DNA from: a virus
Virus record (IMG/VR): IMGVR_UViG_3300033991_000034
Coordinates: 1 to 38,427 of that record
DNA: 38,427 nt
Direction: 5' to 3' (one strand)
The first letter of the stretch is position 1, and every line of letters starts with the position of its first letter. The notes under the pieces were generated by a model that saw only the letters and a program-made list of their open reading frames with translations, did no database searches and had not been told where the DNA came from. The position numbers and the translations under genes were made by a program. Of this stretch, positions 20,137 through 34,798 are shown piece by piece.

Positions 20137-21231
20137 TTATTCTATTTTCAAGGGCATAAGTAAGTAGAAATATTCCGAGATATTGATCGGCTTGAACAGT
20201 GCGGCGCTCAGCGAGCGGATCATTTCAATCCTAACCTTCTGAGTCTCTATCCGCTTGACAATTTCGAGCACGTAAAGCAGATTGAAGCCAATCTCTATCG
20301 ATTGGCCCGTCAACTCGCAGTCGAGTGATTCTGTGGCATGTCTCCCGGAATCCGCCTTCTCGGCCGAAAGCACCAACCGCCCCTCACTAATTTCAAAACG
20401 CACAGAGTGCGTAAACTCATTCGCCGCAATCTCCAGGCGATCAATGGCATCAATCAACTCTTGCCGGTCAATGAGCACGATAGTCTTGAAGTCGGTGGGG
20501 ATTACGTGGGTGATGTTCGGATACGGCCCCTCGATCAGCACGCTTGCAATCTCCGTCTCGTCCGAGCGGAAAGTGACATGCTTATCGCCAAAAGTCACGA
20601 AGAATTCCGATGCGTTCTTGGCTATTGACGCCACCGAGGACAGCGCATCGGGCGGCACAATAACCTCAGCGCGTTCTACGCTTTTGATCTCGGTCTCATT
20701 CCATGCAAGCCTGTGCGCGTCCGTCGCCGCGACAAGCATCTTGTCCCCCAAGCGCCAGTATACCCCGTTGAGCGCGGGCCGCGATATATCGGTGCTCGCA
20801 CAGAAAGCTGTGCGATTCACGACCATGATGAAATGATCGGGGTTGAGCGCGCACTCACCCTCGCACTCATGGTTGCGAATACGCGGAAACTCGTCGGCCG
20901 GTATTGTGGCAAAGCGGTATTCTCCTGACGCGCTCTTGAGCGTAAGCTGATTTTCTGAGGCCTCAAGATGAACTAAATGCTCGGCAGACAACCTGGAAAA
21001 CAATTGAGTCAAGGAAATCGCCGGCGCACAGACAGCGCCGTCGACTTTCGAGTCCACCGCTATGCTCGTAGTGATCGCAAGATTCAAATTGCTGCGGCTC
21101 AGGATAAGCTCTCCGCTCTTTACTCGGAGCAGGACACATTCAAGGATGGGAACAGGCGTCCGCCCCGCCCGAACATGGTTGACGATGTTCAGAGCTTTGA
21201 GCATTTCTCCCGCCGTGATCTGTAGTTTCAC
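20137..21231 (-). CDS. dnaN: DNA polymerase III beta sliding clamp
   Basis: 364 aa from GTG at 21231 (MKLQITAGEMLKALNIVNHV), overlapping the upstream stop as GTGA. This gives the normal clamp length (about 366 aa). An extra upstream extension to 21384 is rejected because it overlaps the neighbouring gene. Three clamp domains are recognisable: VPILECVLLRVKSGELILSRS in domain 1, DISRPALNGVYWRLGDKMLVAATDAHRLAW in domain 2 (split here: RPALNGVY and ATDAHRLAW), and a C-terminal YFYLLMPLKIE. It would tether the replicative polymerase to phage DNA. Phage-encoded bacterial-type clamps are uncommon. Confidence 0.9.
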   Translation of the reverse strand: MKLQITAGEMLKALNIVNHVRAGRTPVPILECVLLRVKSGELILSRSNLNLAITTSIAVDSKVDGAVCAPAISLTQLFSRLSAEHLVHLEASENQLTLKSASGEYRFATIPADEFPRIRNHECEGECALNPDHFIMVVNRTAFCASTDISRPALNGVYWRLGDKMLVAATDAHRLAWNETEIKSVERAEVIVPPDALSSVASIAKNASEFFVTFGDKHVTFRSDETEIASVLIEGPYPNITHVIPTDFKTIVLIDRQELIDAIDRLEIAANEFTHSVRFEISEGRLVLSAEKADSGRHATESLDCELTGQSIEIGFNLLYVLEIVKRIETQKVRIEMIRSLSAALFKPINISEYFYLLMPLKIE

Positions 21232-21419
21232 GTCATATTCCCTTTCTTGTGAATCATGTAATGATGCGAGCAGAGAGGTATCTCCTTCGTATCGGGGAAT
21301 GCCCGCAGAACAACATCCTTGAGCATCGCATTCACCCTCGACGGGGGCGGAAATGCGGATGGAACTCCGCTGCAAATCACGCACCGCGTCGAATCAAGCT
21401 CTTTCGGCATCTCACTCAC
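21228..21419 (-). CDS. 63-aa Cys/His protein, possible zinc-binding
   Basis: GTG start at 21419, overlapping the nuclease gene's stop, with GGAG seven bases upstream. The sequence holds CVIC near the N-terminus and CSHHYMIH near the C-terminus, a plausible zinc site of the type seen in small phage HNH-like or zinc-finger proteins. It is coupled to dnaN by the GTGA overlap. Function unknown. Confidence 0.5.
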   Translation of the reverse strand: MSEMPKELDSTRCVICSGVPSAFPPPSRVNAMLKDVVLRAFPDTKEIPLCSHHYMIHKKGNMT

Positions 21420-24419: not shown

Positions 24420-24479
24420 TCAAATCTTTTCCGCTCCTCGCTCTGCCAGTTTCTTCGCATGCTGCTTCTGTCTGGTCAT
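24420..24479 (-). CDS. 19-aa basic micro-ORF
   Basis: ATG at 24479 overlaps the upstream stop (ATGA), with AAGGAG five bases upstream. It encodes MTRQKQHAKKLAERGAEKI, strongly helical and basic. It fills the gap before the membrane-protein gene. Too short to assign. Confidence 0.4.
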   Translation of the reverse strand: MTRQKQHAKKLAERGAEKI

Positions 24480-24973
24480 TTCGACTCCTTCTGTATTCGG
24501 GAATATCCGAGCTTGCCCTTGAGAATTTCGTCAATCACCTCGCTAAGTCTTTCCGGCTGCATTTCGCGCAGATGACCGGCATGGACAACGGATCGACGCA
24601 GGCGAGGAGTTACTTCTATCCGCCTTGGCTGTGAGGCATTGATCTGCAACTGAGCAGCGATCTCTTGCGCTGAACGTCTGCGGTGCGGCTTGTTATCCTG
24701 CGCGCGTTTCTTCGGTGGTATCTCCGGCTCGAATTTGGGTACGGGATCAGCAAGATAGCTGATCTCAACATCGAAAATGTCCGACAGCCTCCTCACGTCC
24801 GATAGTCGTGGCTGTCGATAGCCGAGTTCGAGTTTGACGATGTAATTCTCGGCGGTGGCGGGAGACACTTCCGGTCTCAATTGCATTCCAAGTCGTTCAA
24901 GCGTGAGGCCTCGCTTATTTCTGAGCCCGCGCAGCCGAGCGCCGAATTCGGGCAAGACTTTGGCATCTTTCAT
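24476..24973 (-). CDS. XRE-family helix-turn-helix regulator
   Basis: 165 aa from ATG at 24973, in ATGA overlap with the dockerin-like gene. The HTH lies at residues 10-65 (FGARLRGLRNKRGLTLERLG, then KLELGYRQPRLSDVRRLSD and IFDVEISYLAD). The rest is basic and lacks a LexA-type peptidase domain. It sits within the early operon rather than next to the divergent switch, so it may regulate a later step. An upstream extension to 25135 is a shadow of the neighbouring gene. Confidence 0.7.
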   Translation of the reverse strand: MKDAKVLPEFGARLRGLRNKRGLTLERLGMQLRPEVSPATAENYIVKLELGYRQPRLSDVRRLSDIFDVEISYLADPVPKFEPEIPPKKRAQDNKPHRRRSAQEIAAQLQINASQPRRIEVTPRLRRSVVHAGHLREMQPERLSEVIDEILKGKLGYSRIQKESK

Positions 24974-28574: not shown

Positions 28575-28834
28575 TACTCTCCCTTCTCGCACTCAGCGAT
28601 GATTCTATTGATGGACTCGACGTACTCTGTCGTCTGCATCCTGTTGCCAGGGTGATGCGTCGCATCCAGACTCCACCAGGGGATCGCTTTTCTGAGAGTA
28701 TCCAGCAGCAGATTCCTCTGCCGGAGTAACTTGTTATTTTCGACTTCCAACTCATGGATGTCCCGGCAATAACATGAGCAGTACCCGTCAATACGGTTTT
28801 CCATCTCTGGGCAATCCGGTCGGCCGCACTTCAT
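28574..28834 (-). CDS. 86-aa Cys-rich protein with coiled coil
   Basis: ATG at 28834 (ATGA overlap) gives MKCGRPDCPEMENRIDGYCSC. Cysteines at the N-terminus (CGRPDC ... CSCYC) look zinc-binding. A coiled coil follows (HELEVENNKLLRQRNLLLDTL). No family recognised; the arrangement suits a small nucleic-acid or protein-binding factor. Confidence 0.5.
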   Translation of the reverse strand: MKCGRPDCPEMENRIDGYCSCYCRDIHELEVENNKLLRQRNLLLDTLRKAIPWWSLDATHHPGNRMQTTEYVESINRIIAECEKGE

Positions 28835-29079
28835 CTCTCGCATTCAACGACCCTCTCAATCTTCTCGACCTCGATCTTCAGCGGCTCATCATTCAGGTAG
28901 GTCACGAGGCCGGTGAGTTTCACGTCCTTTTCCAGCAATGCAAGCAACTGCCAGCGCCGCACTCCACGCGGCATGCAGACGATGGCGGAGCCCGCTTTCG
29001 ATCCGGATATGTAGATGTTGACATTGCTGATCTGAAAGAGTCGACCTTCGATTGTGGCGTTTTGTTTGTGTATCGGCAT
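28831..29079 (-). CDS. 82-aa beta-rich protein, paralogue of the 32476 gene
   Basis: GAGG site before ATG at 29079. The sequence TIEGRLFQISNVNIYISGS, then GVRRWQLLALLEKDVKLTG and VTYLNDEPLKIEVEKIE closely matches the plus-strand gene at 32476 along its whole length. The shared strand pattern suggests a small beta barrel. Function unknown. The opposite-strand paralogue carries an additional zinc-ribbon tail. Confidence 0.6.
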   Translation of the reverse strand: MPIHKQNATIEGRLFQISNVNIYISGSKAGSAIVCMPRGVRRWQLLALLEKDVKLTGLVTYLNDEPLKIEVEKIERVVECER

Positions 29080-31597: not shown

Positions 31598-31625
31598 AAT
31601 ATACCGATTCCTGTTGATTTGTCAA
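31598..31625 (-). promoter_or_regulatory. Leftward sigma70 promoter
   Basis: TTGACA (minus strand, 31620-31625) and TATATT (31598-31603) with a 16-base spacer. Drives the 86-aa gene. The -35 is the left arm of the shared inverted repeat. Confidence 0.65.
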
Positions 31626-31639
31626 GATTTTTCTTGACA
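31620..31639. promoter_or_regulatory. Inverted-repeat operator shared by two -35 boxes
   Basis: TGTCAAGA-TTTT-TCTTGACA is a perfect 8+8 palindrome whose arms contain the -35 hexamers of both divergent promoters. A dimeric repressor bound here would close both directions. The 60-aa ribbon-helix-helix-like protein is the natural candidate. Confidence 0.6.
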
Positions 31640-31661
31640 CGTATCGAAATATCGTTATCTT
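31634..31661 (+). promoter_or_regulatory. Rightward sigma70 promoter
   Basis: TTGACA (31634-31639) and TATCTT (31656-31661) with a 16-base spacer. The predicted start lies about 18 bases before the GTG of the 60-aa gene, with AGGAGGA between. Confidence 0.6.
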
Positions 31662-31685: not shown

Positions 31686-31868
31686 GTGAGCAAAACGGCA
31701 CGTAGCATTTCGCTTGAGGATGAGGACTGGCAGGCAATTGAGACCTACGGACAGGCATTCGGGCAATCACCCTCGCAGGCGATTGCGTCTATTGTCAGAC
31801 AGCCCCAGGTATATATGGATTGGGTCGATCAACAGAAGGCAACAGCGACGGATGTTATTAGGCGATAG
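31686..31868 (+). CDS. 60-aa ribbon-helix-helix-like regulator
   Basis: GTG start with AGGAGGA seven bases upstream. The sequence SKTARSISLEDEDWQAIETY, then GQSPSQAIASIVRQP gives a short N-terminal strand and two helices, the ribbon-helix-helix pattern of Arc/CopG-type DNA-binding proteins. It is the first gene right of the inverted-repeat operator and probably autoregulates. Family assignment is by pattern only. Confidence 0.55.
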   Translation: MSKTARSISLEDEDWQAIETYGQAFGQSPSQAIASIVRQPQVYMDWVDQQKATATDVIRR

Positions 31869-32110
31869 GGATGTCACTTCCCAGGCGCGGGGTCAGGGAT
31901 GCTGGCGGTCGAGGGGCAGACCGCCGGCACAAATTCGACCGGCTATAGTCTCTGTGCGGGATGTCCGGTGTGGTGGTTTTGTAGCCCCCTTTGCTGCCGC
32001 ATCGGCTCCCGCCGTTGATTTCCCCGAAAGGGGTGGTTACCTCCTAGTTGCTGGTGGGTTAGAAGGCGGCGGGGGCCTAATCCCCGCCGCTGAAATTGGG
32101 AGAATGCAGC
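31869..32110 (+). ncRNA. Candidate structured RNA region A
   Basis: 240 GC-rich bases without a credible gene but dense in pairing. There is a GCTGGCGGTC/GACCGCCGGC hairpin (31901-31928), a CCCC-GAAA-GGGG tetraloop hairpin (32022-32033) enclosed by GTAGCC/GGTTAC (31981-32040), and a 9-bp GCGGCGGGG/CCCCGCCGC hairpin (32066-32090). The last element recurs identically at 33304-33328, and ATGTCCGGTG at 31961 recurs at 33150. Strand is assigned by the direction of flanking genes. No known RNA family recognised. Confidence 0.4.
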
Positions 32111-32284
32111 ATGAGAATTTGTTGGTCTGTAGATGAAGTAGGGGCCATGGATCGTTATCTGACAATTGATGATGGTGAGTTTGAGGGACTAACGGAACAA
32201 GAGCGCGAAACTCTGATTAACGAATACGTCCAAGAAGCCTTTGATGACAAAATCTGTTTTTACTGGAAAATAGTAGATGACTGA
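32111..32284 (+). CDS. 57-aa acidic protein
   Basis: GGGAGA eight bases before ATG (MRICWSVDEVGAMDRYLTID). An internal ATG at residue 13 is also possible. Acidic and helical (EQERETLINEYVQEAFDDK). Its last codons (YWKIVDD-stop) match the end of the 23-aa ORF at 32829, each running into the 5' arm of a repeat unit. Confidence 0.5.
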   Translation: MRICWSVDEVGAMDRYLTIDDGEFEGLTEQERETLINEYVQEAFDDKICFYWKIVDD

Positions 32285-32460
32285 TATGGCAAGCGAGAGA
32301 GCTATAGTGACGACTATGGCGGGTTTGAGATGTCTGCCAGTATCTAATTATGAGAAGGCCTCGACATCACATAATGGGAGAGACGGTGATTACAGCACGT
32401 TTTCACGTTCTCTCGGAGCAATAACGGGTGGGGAATCCCGCCTCTCGCTTGCCTTGAATG
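32277..32460 (+). ncRNA. Candidate structured RNA unit 1
   Basis: GGCAAGCGAGAG (32288-32299) is the exact complement of CTCTCGCTTGCC (32442-32453). Inside are CTATAGT/ACTATGG with a GACG loop, GAGAGA/TCTCTC, and GGTGGG-GAAT-CCCGCC (32427-32442) abutting the closing stem. A 65-aa frame (MTDMASERAIVTTMAG) overlaps it in ATGA fashion and cannot be excluded, but its only similarity to unit 2 is in the stem-forming bases. Confidence 0.45.
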
Positions 32461-32475
32461 ACGAACGGAGATAAT

Positions 32476-32799
32476 ATGATAACTCACAAAAAGAATATAA
32501 CGATTGAAGGCCGACTCTTTCAGATCAGCAGTAGAAACATTTACATTACCAAGCCTCAAGGGGGCAAAACAGGCATTCGCTGCATGCCGTATGGCGTACG
32601 GCGTTGGCAGTTGCTTAATGCAGTCGGCAAAAATGTCAGGATTACCGGTTTTGTGACCTACCTGAATTGTGAACCGGTAGAAATCGGGGTCGAGAAGATT
32701 GAAATGTCTCCCGTCGTCTTGAAGAAATGCCCTTCATGTGATCTGATGTCGATAGTCAACGATGAGTGCACTGAATGTGGAGCGAGAATCAAAGGTTAA
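32476..32799 (+). CDS. 107-aa beta-rich protein with zinc-ribbon tail
   Basis: GGAG six bases before ATG (MITHKKNITIEGRLFQISSR). The first 80 residues are a clear paralogue of the minus-strand 28831 gene (TIEGRLFQIS...NIYI, CMPYGVRRWQLL, VTYLNCEPVEI). The added tail CPSCDLMSIVNDECTEC is a zinc ribbon matching the tail of the 29788 protein. It lies between two repeat units of the folded region, so may act with those RNAs. That link is speculative. Confidence 0.6.
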   Translation: MITHKKNITIEGRLFQISSRNIYITKPQGGKTGIRCMPYGVRRWQLLNAVGKNVRITGFVTYLNCEPVEIGVEKIEMSPVVLKKCPSCDLMSIVNDECTECGARIKG

Positions 32800-32828
32800 C
32801 TGATATGGCAATCAGAGGAGTTTACAAG

Positions 32829-32900
32829 ATGACACATAATCAACATGAATGCAATGCTTATCGTGAAAAGCTGTTCTCCGAGTGGAAGATAGATGACTGA
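32829..32900 (+). CDS. 23-aa micro-ORF
   Basis: GAGGAG eight bases before ATG (MTHNQHECNAYREKLFSEWK, ending IDD). Its end matches the 57-aa ORF and runs into repeat unit 2, so it may be a shortened paralogue of that gene or a leader peptide. Confidence 0.35.
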   Translation: MTHNQHECNAYREKLFSEWKIDD

Positions 32901-33040
32901 CATGGCAAGCGAGAGCGGCATAATTCGCGGCATGCTCTTAAATTACTGGGAAGGAATAACTGACAAGATGGGGCGGCAATCCAGTAGTGCCGAAGGCCTC
33001 ACCGGTCGGTTGGAATCCGGCCTCTCGCTTGCCTTGAATT
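32893..33040 (+). ncRNA. Candidate structured RNA unit 2
   Basis: The same closing stem as unit 1: GGCAAGCGAGAG (32904-32915) with CTCTCGCTTGCC (33022-33033). The inner hairpin is GGTCGG-TTGGAAT-CCGGCC (33004-33022). Compared with unit 1, one pair changes from G-C to C-G while pairing and the GGAAT loop end are kept, a compensatory change supporting RNA structure. The bases between are otherwise diverged and of different length (106 against 142). Confidence 0.5.
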
Positions 33041-33330
33041 TGGGTGGTGGCAGACGGTATAGCTTGGGCATGGGTTCGAGTCCCAGGATATTGCGCAATA
33101 TCCCCCGGAAGTCTGCCGCCTTGAATTTCCCACTCGTCCTTAGCGGCTTATGTCCGGTGAGTGGGGTTTCGCAGCATGTCTCCGAGATTCAACCCGCAGG
33201 TCTCGGGGTCAACCGCACCGCTGAGTTTTGGAAAGTTTCGCTCAGCGGTGCGGAGAGAATTTCCTCTTTTCTTCCTCCTCTCGCTTCTCAGATGCGGACC
33301 GATGCGGCGGGGGCCTAATCCCCGCCGCTG
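33041..33330 (+). ncRNA. Candidate structured RNA region B with T-loop junction
   Basis: A run of stems. P1 is GGTGGCAGAC (33046-33055) with GTCTGCCGCC (33111-33120). Inside P1 are TGGG-TTCGAGT-CCCA (33071-33085), whose loop fits the tRNA T-loop pattern, and GGATATT-GCGC-AATATCC (33086-33103). These are followed by CCCACTC/GAGTGGG (33129-33165), CTCCGAGA/TCTCGGGG (33180-33208), a perfect 13-bp stem CCGCACCGCTGAG/CTCAGCGGTGCGG (33213-33253), and the 9-bp hairpin at 33304-33328. A 141-aa frame crosses the region but looks non-coding. Confidence 0.5.
33304..33328 (+). repeat. GC-rich 9-bp hairpin, duplicated at 32066-32090
   Basis: GCGGCGGGG-GCCTAAT-CCCCGCCGC, identical in both copies including the loop. 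Each copy ends a folded region and precedes a gene. No T-run follows, so it is not a classical terminator, but it could be a processing or stop signal. Confidence 0.6.
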
Positions 33331-33358
33331 GAAATGGTAGATGAGAGGACGATCACTA

Positions 33359-34798
33359 ATGAGAAAATGTCTCGCAGGCCCCTTCATCGGTGAATTCGGT
33401 TGGGAGCTTTTTTGTTGGCAAGGCTTTCTCCGCAAGCGCCGATCCGACTATGATTCGATGACCGTCATTTGCAGAAAAGGCCATTCGATTCTATATGCGG
33501 ATTTCGCCGATGAGGTTATCGAGATTGATATTCCCGTGGATAATGTGAACGAATGGATGAATAGAGGCTTCGATCCAAATCAGACGGTCAATTACTATAA
33601 GAGTGCCGGCGAATTTACAGATTTCATTCCGTTCAATGCATTCAAATCGTGGTGGTGGAAAAACTCATCTGCATGGAACAGGCAGATATTCAAAGCCCTT
33701 GGACAAAAACATGACACATTGAAAACTGACATTCTGATTCACGCTCGCAATGCTCATCACTATGGATCATCTTACCGCAATTGGAAACAACCTGATGCTG
33801 ATCTATATGGTCAATGGGCAAGCAGTCAAGGGTATTCGATTGCATCGATAGGATTATCACAAAGCTCGACTCACATATCTGCCGGATTAGATTATCGAGA
33901 CAAATCACTTGCGGAGTTGGCGGATATAATGGCAAGCAGTCGACTCCTGATTGGTTCGCAATCAGGGCCGACACATTATGCGGCGCTTTGTAAGTTGCCG
34001 GTGATTGCATGGCAACAATCATCCGAAAGCGCAGTCCGTGTTGAAAGGCATTGGAATCCATTCAACGTTGAGACTCGCACGAAACCGGCGGATATTGTCC
34101 TCAAGGCCAAACGCGAATCATTCACTCCGCCTCTCGAATGGATGCAGGATGCAACATTGGACATACTGAAACGATCAGAAGTTCGAGGGAATGGATTATC
34201 TCAAGATGAAATCAGACGATATTGGGATGATAGATCATCCAAACAAGACGCGTGTACTGTCGGCCCCTATGGTTCATCTTTAAGAGAGCAAGATAACATC
34301 TATCAGGAACGCTTTGCTTTTATGCAGCATCGAATGCCATTCACGTATCGGACACTCGACTTCGGCTGTGGTATAGGTCGTTGCAGTTCATTATTCGATT
34401 CGGCGAAATATCTGGGTGTCGACATCTGTTCAAATCTGATCGAACTTGCAAAAACACGGAATCCGGGTTACGAATACAAACTACTTGGCAAGCCATTGAT
34501 AGAAGATATTGATTTTGTATATGACTGTTTTTTCACGTCAACGGTCTTGCAGCACAATGACGACGCGTCTGTTGTAGCCATATTCAAATCGGTTAAGCAG
34601 TCTATCCGGGGTCGACCGCTTACTCTTTGTCTATACGAGAACACTTCGGAAAATCCCAACAAGGCACATATCTGTTTCAGGAGTGTCACGAGATATGAGG
34701 AACTGATTCGCAGTGTATTTTCCATTGAGAATTTTGACTCGTGGTCACATATTTCATATAGGGAACGGCACTCGCTTATGGTTGCGCGGGTCAAATAG
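33359..34798 (+). CDS. Glycosyltransferase-methyltransferase fusion
   Basis: 479 aa from ATG at 33359 (MRKCLAGPFIGEFGWELFCW); an ATG at 33341 lacks a ribosome site. The N-terminal domain (1 to about 265) has the GT9/heptosyltransferase-like end: SSRLLIGSQSGPTHYAALCKL, then PVIAWQQ. The C-terminal domain (about 325-479) is a class I SAM methyltransferase with TLDFGCGIGRCSSLFD and YLGVDICSNLIELAK. A methylated sugar or glycan is the likely product: modification of host surface polysaccharide, phage capsid or phage DNA. The substrate is unknown. Confidence 0.65.
   Translation: MRKCLAGPFIGEFGWELFCWQGFLRKRRSDYDSMTVICRKGHSILYADFADEVIEIDIPVDNVNEWMNRGFDPNQTVNYYKSAGEFTDFIPFNAFKSWWWKNSSAWNRQIFKALGQKHDTLKTDILIHARNAHHYGSSYRNWKQPDADLYGQWASSQGYSIASIGLSQSSTHISAGLDYRDKSLAELADIMASSRLLIGSQSGPTHYAALCKLPVIAWQQSSESAVRVERHWNPFNVETRTKPADIVLKAKRESFTPPLEWMQDATLDILKRSEVRGNGLSQDEIRRYWDDRSSKQDACTVGPYGSSLREQDNIYQERFAFMQHRMPFTYRTLDFGCGIGRCSSLFDSAKYLGVDICSNLIELAKTRNPGYEYKLLGKPLIEDIDFVYDCFFTSTVLQHNDDASVVAIFKSVKQSIRGRPLTLCLYENTSENPNKAHICFRSVTRYEELIRSVFSIENFDSWSHISYRERHSLMVARVK

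Follow-up and report, generated by a model that had tools for sequence, protein, structure and literature searches.

A duplicated, edge-conserved intergenic cassette in a tailed phage, probably a variant of known phage regulatory cassettes with a putative function

We have analysed a virus record of 38,427 bases, the whole of which is referred to here as the window, and describe an intergenic cassette that occurs there in two full copies. Comparison of the two copies shows, at the level of the nucleotide sequence, that their edges are conserved and mutually complementary, whereas the part between them varies freely. The feature itself is genuine, with duplication and conserved edges both confirmed, and it is probably a variant of known phage regulatory cassettes, with a putative function. 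The cassette resembles phage promoter/stem-loop modules more than a proven new RNA class.

Conserved edges of the two units

The window carries tailed-phage genes, among them terminase, portal and head protein genes on the - strand, and a rightward + strand arm starts at about 31.6 kb. The first gene of this operon, at 31686, encodes a possible RHH protein (a weak match). The features of the two units and their neighbouring genes are as follows.

32111-32284, +, DUF7167 gene (PF23768) upstream of unit 1; profile match E 9.9e-9
32274-32299, +, TAGATGACTGATATGGCAAGCGAGAG, 5' block in unit 1; last DUF7167 codons including the TGA stop, followed by the 5' arm
32288-32453, +, unit 1; 12-bp arms 32288-32299 and 32442-32453, interior of 142 nt
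32432-32459, +, GGAATCCCGCCTCTCGCTTGCCTTGAAT, 3' block in unit 1; identity to the unit 2 block 27/28
32476-32799, +, gene downstream of unit 1
32829-32900, +, 23-codon ORF ending LFSEWKIDD, before unit 2; compared with 32250-32284
32890-32915, +, 5' block of unit 2; 25/26 identical to unit 1
32904-33033, +, unit 2; 12-bp arms 32904-32915 and 33022-33033, interior of 106 nt
33012-33039, +, 3' block of unit 2; 27/28 identical to unit 1

A sequence-only reading had described two units closed by a shared 12-bp stem, with 142 and 106 inner bases that had diverged, each starting in the tail of a short ORF. All of this was borne out. The arms of both units are perfect 12-bp inverted repeats (GGCAAGCGAGAG/CTCTCGCTTGCC), the ORF tails end in WKIVDD and WKIDD, and the interiors show no similarity above background apart from one 9-mer, GAAGGCCTC. 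The WKIVDD that extends into unit 1 is the genuine C-terminus of the DUF7167 protein, since the profile match reaches the end of the profile. The DNA of the ORF upstream of unit 2 aligns with the tail of the DUF7167 gene; because this tail is repeated before unit 2, the gene tail and the cassette were duplicated together.

Strong similarity between units 1 and 2 is confined to the two edge blocks, TAGATGACTGAYATGGCAAGCGAGAG (25/26) and GGAATCCSGCCTCTCGCTTGCCTTGAAT (27/28). Outside the arms, conservation extends for 14 nt on the 5' side and 6 nt on the 3' side. With one mismatch or less, the 12-mer is found in 38 kb at the four arm sites only (0.35 expected). A 12-bp inverted repeat on its own is not rare in 38 kb: from base counts, about 0.5 perfect repeats with a spacer of 200 nt or less are expected, and an unrelated one is present at 24969. 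The feature is significant because the edge blocks are mutually complementary over 12 bp, which none of 20,000 block shuffles reached (maximum 10), and because the 5' similarity breaks off precisely where the arm gives way to the interior. The sole substitution in the 5' block (T/C) preserves pairing across the T-T mismatch, as U-G or C-G.

Several observations can be added on the surroundings. Searches of Pfam and PHROG gave no family for the gene at 32476-32799; it is paralogous to a small gene on the opposite strand (28831-29079, -), with 61% identity, and one of these paralogues has an additional Cys-rich tail (CPSC...CTEC). Between the RHH-like gene and the DUF7167 gene lie about 245 nt (31866-32111) that are apparently non-coding and well folded (z -2.9). 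On the - strand, the phage encodes a DNA polymerase III beta clamp with all three Pfam domains (20137-21384) and an HTH_31/HTH_3 protein, a candidate phage repressor (24476-24970).

Predicted folding, searches for homologues and a possible third stem

The predicted fold of unit 1 as a whole is a multi-armed closed structure (z -5.4 against shuffles), and its interior alone is modestly structured (z -2.6). Unit 2 as a whole reaches z -2.9 through the closing stem only; its interior alone, at z +0.1, folds no better than shuffles. The sequence-only reading had taken the pattern as a conserved RNA fold with a 6-bp hairpin abutting the stem in each copy and one compensatory G-C to C-G change between the copies. 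Of this fold, the closing stem is supported by the complementary edges, but the interior of unit 2 does not support the remainder. The hairpin is stable by prediction in unit 1 (pair probability about 0.96) but shares one C with the 12-bp stem, so that the pairing would be 11+6 or 12+5. In unit 2, the corresponding pairing GGTCGG/CCGGCC has a probability of 0.008 and lies 2.9 kcal/mol above the MFE. Considering that the hairpin is disfavoured there, the single swapped pair is no proof of covariation. A 5-bp hairpin of one sort or another next to the stem in both units has a chance of about 0.1%, and the swap is accordingly weak evidence for a compensatory change. Across units 1 and 2, which give n = 2 copies, we found no interior fold conserved with covariation. 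A further hairpin, the first one, lies in unit 1.

32301-32320, +, GCTATAGT gacg ACTATGGC, first hairpin in unit 1; the -10 region is paired to the ATG at 32316

On the + strand, no stem followed by a T-run was found in either unit, and accordingly the stem is not an intrinsic terminator.

A covariance model built from both units, as had been suggested, finds units 1 and 2 and has no other match. Rfam 15 gave no match at gathering or relaxed thresholds. Searches for tRNA and tmRNA, introns included (ARAGORN, Rfam), gave one implausible match only, inside the coding gene at 34032. Scans of viral contigs for the exact edges and for the stem pair returned zero matches or one by chance; the match in one contig (L013) is inside a coding gene and was taken as chance. 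Among genome contigs, a stem-pair match in a Myxococcales MAG (L014) is inside a palindrome with 96-nt arms between host genes and was judged a coincidence. The surrounding element (L014, 4457-4890) is a long palindrome between genes, with outer arms of 56 nt and inner arms of 96 nt, and looks like a small repeat element of the Myxococcales genome. Similarity searches of phage and plasmid collections found no match to the cassette. Protein-guided searches were made with the gene at 32476, the glycosyltransferase, ERF and the terminase, and the contigs of the relatives found end before this arm. Two of these relatives (L005/L006/L007 and L009/L011) are 72-75% identical over the structural genes, and one is more distant (L010/L012); none of the three reaches the arm with the cassette. 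An integron attC-like site was rejected, as the edges are without a GTTRRRY core and no integrase was noticed, by reading, among the ORFs examined. A retron-type a1/a2 stem was likewise rejected, no reverse transcriptase having been noticed by reading.

Downstream of unit 2 there is a further stem, which as a third unit is suggestive only.

33046-33120, +, possible third unit with a weaker stem; 10-bp stem GGTGGCAGAC/GTCTGCCGCC with one G-U, then TTGAAT; the stem sequence differs from that of units 1 and 2

The GCC/TTGAAT edge recurs after this stem, and the stretch has the shared 9-mer GCCTTGAAT. A stem at that place is expected by chance in 1.25% of cases, and the fold has z -1.5. A tRNA motif resembling a T-loop (GGGTTCGAGTCCC) and a perfect palindrome of 18 nt lie in this stretch, in which neither ARAGORN nor Rfam recognised a tRNA.

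Promoter-like elements and gene-boundary repeats

Promoters were sought by a plain sigma70 consensus scan followed by weight-matrix ranking over 76,774 positions, with a consensus that may not be that of the host. Each unit holds a high-ranking element at its 5' edge, and a further, partial copy of this edge lies between the units.

32281-32308, +, promoter-like element of unit 1, CTGATA-16-TATAGT; rank 18/76,774
32799-32811, +, ACTGATATGGCAA, a partial third 5' edge that follows the 32476-32799 gene; without the arm or the -10
32897-32924, +, promoter-like element of unit 2, CTGACA-16-CATAAT; rank 11/76,774

The 16-nt spacer of each sigma70-like element (CTGAYA-16-TATAGT/CATAAT) holds the 5' arm, a placement that the sequence-only reading did not remark on and which offers a simpler reason for the conservation of the 5' edge. 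The -35s are within the conserved 5' block and the -10s within the diverged interior. When the 5' blocks were kept fixed, both -10s were equally good in 0.015% of interior shuffles. The partial edge copy ranks only 315. Two back-to-back sites, TTGACA-16-TATATT at 31598-31625 (-) and TTGACA-16-TATCTT at 31634-31661 (+), have ranks 1 and 3, and they are likely the divergent early promoters, from which transcription of both arms departs. Genome-wide, there were 16 equally good real sites vs 12-25 in shuffles. The promoter support is therefore good and not decisive, because the finding is post hoc and there is no genome-wide excess of scores. A promoter enclosed by a long-range hairpin is probable in each of the two copies.

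Further gene-boundary repeats are dense in 29-33.4 kb on both strands. A hairpin repeat of 27 exact bases, GCGGCGGGGGCCTAATCCCCGCCGCTG, is present at 32066-32103 and 33304-33341, before the ribosome sites of two different genes; having no T-run, this hairpin is not a terminator. As far as repeats in the DNA can tell, shuffling seems to take place in 29-33.4 kb. Exact repeats of 16 and 18 bases lie by gene starts on the - strand of the left early region (29309/30654 and 29762/30920), and they may be read as a sign of gene-boundary shuffling there too.

Putative role of the cassette, related systems and rival readings

We tentatively favour, with a confidence somewhat short of probable, a promoter/stem-loop cassette that has been duplicated within an early operon subject to shuffling and whose full stem would form only in read-through transcripts. 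The cassette would be an intergenic regulatory element, copied together with the last DUF7167 codons, in the early operon that this tailed phage transcribes rightward. Its 5' edge would be a host-type sigma70 promoter with the -35 over the upstream stop codon and the 5' arm as spacer, and this promoter would restart transcription of the downstream genes. Read-through RNA from the upstream promoter (31634) would have both arms and form the long-range 12-bp stem. RNA from the cassette's own promoter would be without the 5' arm, making the stem impossible, and the stem would therefore mark read-through RNA. As to what the stem does, we infer that read-through RNA may be processed or silenced there, as happens in promoter/stem-loop cassettes of phages, or that decay or insulation may follow. 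In addition, the conserved edges may provide the homology by which the small genes lying between them are shuffled. By prediction, the 3' arm is fully paired in read-through RNA and 41-72% unpaired in locally started RNA. Access to the Shine-Dalgarno of the next gene (32476) is predicted to be unchanged by the stem (0.50-0.65 vs 0.47 unpaired), and accordingly a T4-type block on the next gene is not supported.

Among known systems, an inhibitory helix is found in the T4 genes e, soc, 49 and I-TevI, and gene e and its relatives have a promoter inside the sequence that gives rise to the helix's 5' strand (PMC3014915). The cassette would be like the T4 gene e leader in that read-through RNA would fold and locally started RNA would not, the promoter here being a consensus match only. 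On the other hand, the T4 leader helix covers the Shine-Dalgarno or start codon of the next gene and none such is predicted for the phage cassette, and the stem of the cassette is long-range (loop of 106-142 nt), unlike that of gene e-type leaders. If taken as a structured phage-encoded non-coding RNA, the cassette can be compared with T4 RNAs C and D and with GOLLD/ROOL (PMC3014915, PMC12286853). Unlike these, it has no Rfam match, no tRNA context and no conserved interior fold, and its units are much smaller than GOLLD/ROOL.

PeSLs reportedly occur as repeated cassettes in the spaces between small genes of a shuffling region, and each is said to combine an early promoter with a compact stem-loop of the terminator type. 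Like PeSLs, the present cassette is intergenic and is repeated between shuffled small genes; short ORFs flank both full copies and the partial one. Unlike PeSLs, it has a promoter-like element arranged around a single arm of a long-range stem, this stem is not followed by a T-run, and there are only two full copies. PMC4503421 cites Arbiol 2010 and Comeau 2014 for PeSLs, the promoter/stem-loop cassettes found in T4-type phages.

The main rival is a pair of DNA operators, for which the phage has candidate regulators: the possible RHH protein at 31686 (weak match) and the HTH_31/HTH_3 protein at 24476-24970. The 12-mer would then be an asymmetric operator, one in the promoter spacer and the second inverted 118-154 bp downstream, through which a phage regulator would repress initiation and perhaps elongation or act by looping, and the RNA stem would be incidental. 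We consider this explanation rather unlikely. It agrees with a conservation limited to the promoter and the 12-mers with a free interior, and asymmetric 13-mer operators/stoperators are known in mycobacteriophage L5, where they are, as here, short sites in promoters and intergenic spaces (PMC9283540). However, L5 has >20 operator/stoperator copies in one orientation relative to transcription, and its sites are functional in one orientation only (PMC9283540), whereas the cassettes have four sites, two per orientation, in inverted pairs, instead of many sites in one orientation. Also, the genome has no further copies of the 12-mer, the main divergent promoters included; the 36-bp length difference is not an integer number of helical turns; and the 3' conserved block reaches well past the 12-mer.

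A further reading, which appears clearly unlikely, takes the units as small structured RNAs cut out at a common processing stem, with payload folds that differ and with 33046-33120 as a third unit. The multi-armed closed fold of unit 1 (z -5.4; interior alone z -2.6) would suit such RNAs, as would the well-folded neighbouring non-coding stretches and the layout of 33046-33120, which repeats the stem and GCC/TTGAAT with another stem sequence. It is at odds with the interior of unit 2 (z +0.1), with z -1.5 and a stem at 1.25% by chance in 33046-33120, with the Rfam, tRNA and tmRNA searches, which were without match, and with a promoter around the 5' arm, which would leave local transcripts without that arm. 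It is very improbable that all of this forms one phage RNA cassette system, in which a common closing (processing) stem and flanks would carry swapped structured payloads, the promoter would distinguish read-through from local transcripts, and 33046-33120 would be a third member with a changed stem sequence and the pairing and the GCC/TTGAAT edge kept. That the units are present or past small coding sequences, possibly leaderless, is highly doubtful. One reading frame, in the same register at both edges, stays open across the two units (2.1% by chance, x 1/3 for the register), and an ATG lies exactly 8 nt past the -10 in each (32316, 32932). Yet there is no Shine-Dalgarno for these frames, though most genes of this phage have one, the codon score of unit 1 is in the 2nd-6th percentile of genes, the unit 2 ORF continues through hairpin-rich, non-coding-like sequence, and the frames have no protein family match. 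The putative peptides are alike at their ends only, where codon third positions are conserved as much as the others. The view of the sequence-only reading that the pattern does not fit a conserved peptide agrees with our results, and a constraint on the edges at the nucleotide rather than the peptide level is supported, as far as two copies can be compared. Finally, the inverted ends and replaceable interior could suggest terminal inverted repeats of a small non-autonomous mobile element; this is scarcely plausible, as conservation continues beyond the arms (14 and 6 nt), the interiors are unrelated, and no other copies were found in the phage, its relatives or public collections.

In summary, an inverted repeat in a phage leader is possibly a promoter spacer or an operator pair, and not an RNA fold. 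If the promoter/stem-loop reading of the cassette is true, read-through and local transcripts would differ in structure because the promoter is arranged around a single arm of the long-range stem, and the edges of phage regulatory cassettes would stay fixed and complementary to each other in evolution while the interiors are replaced.
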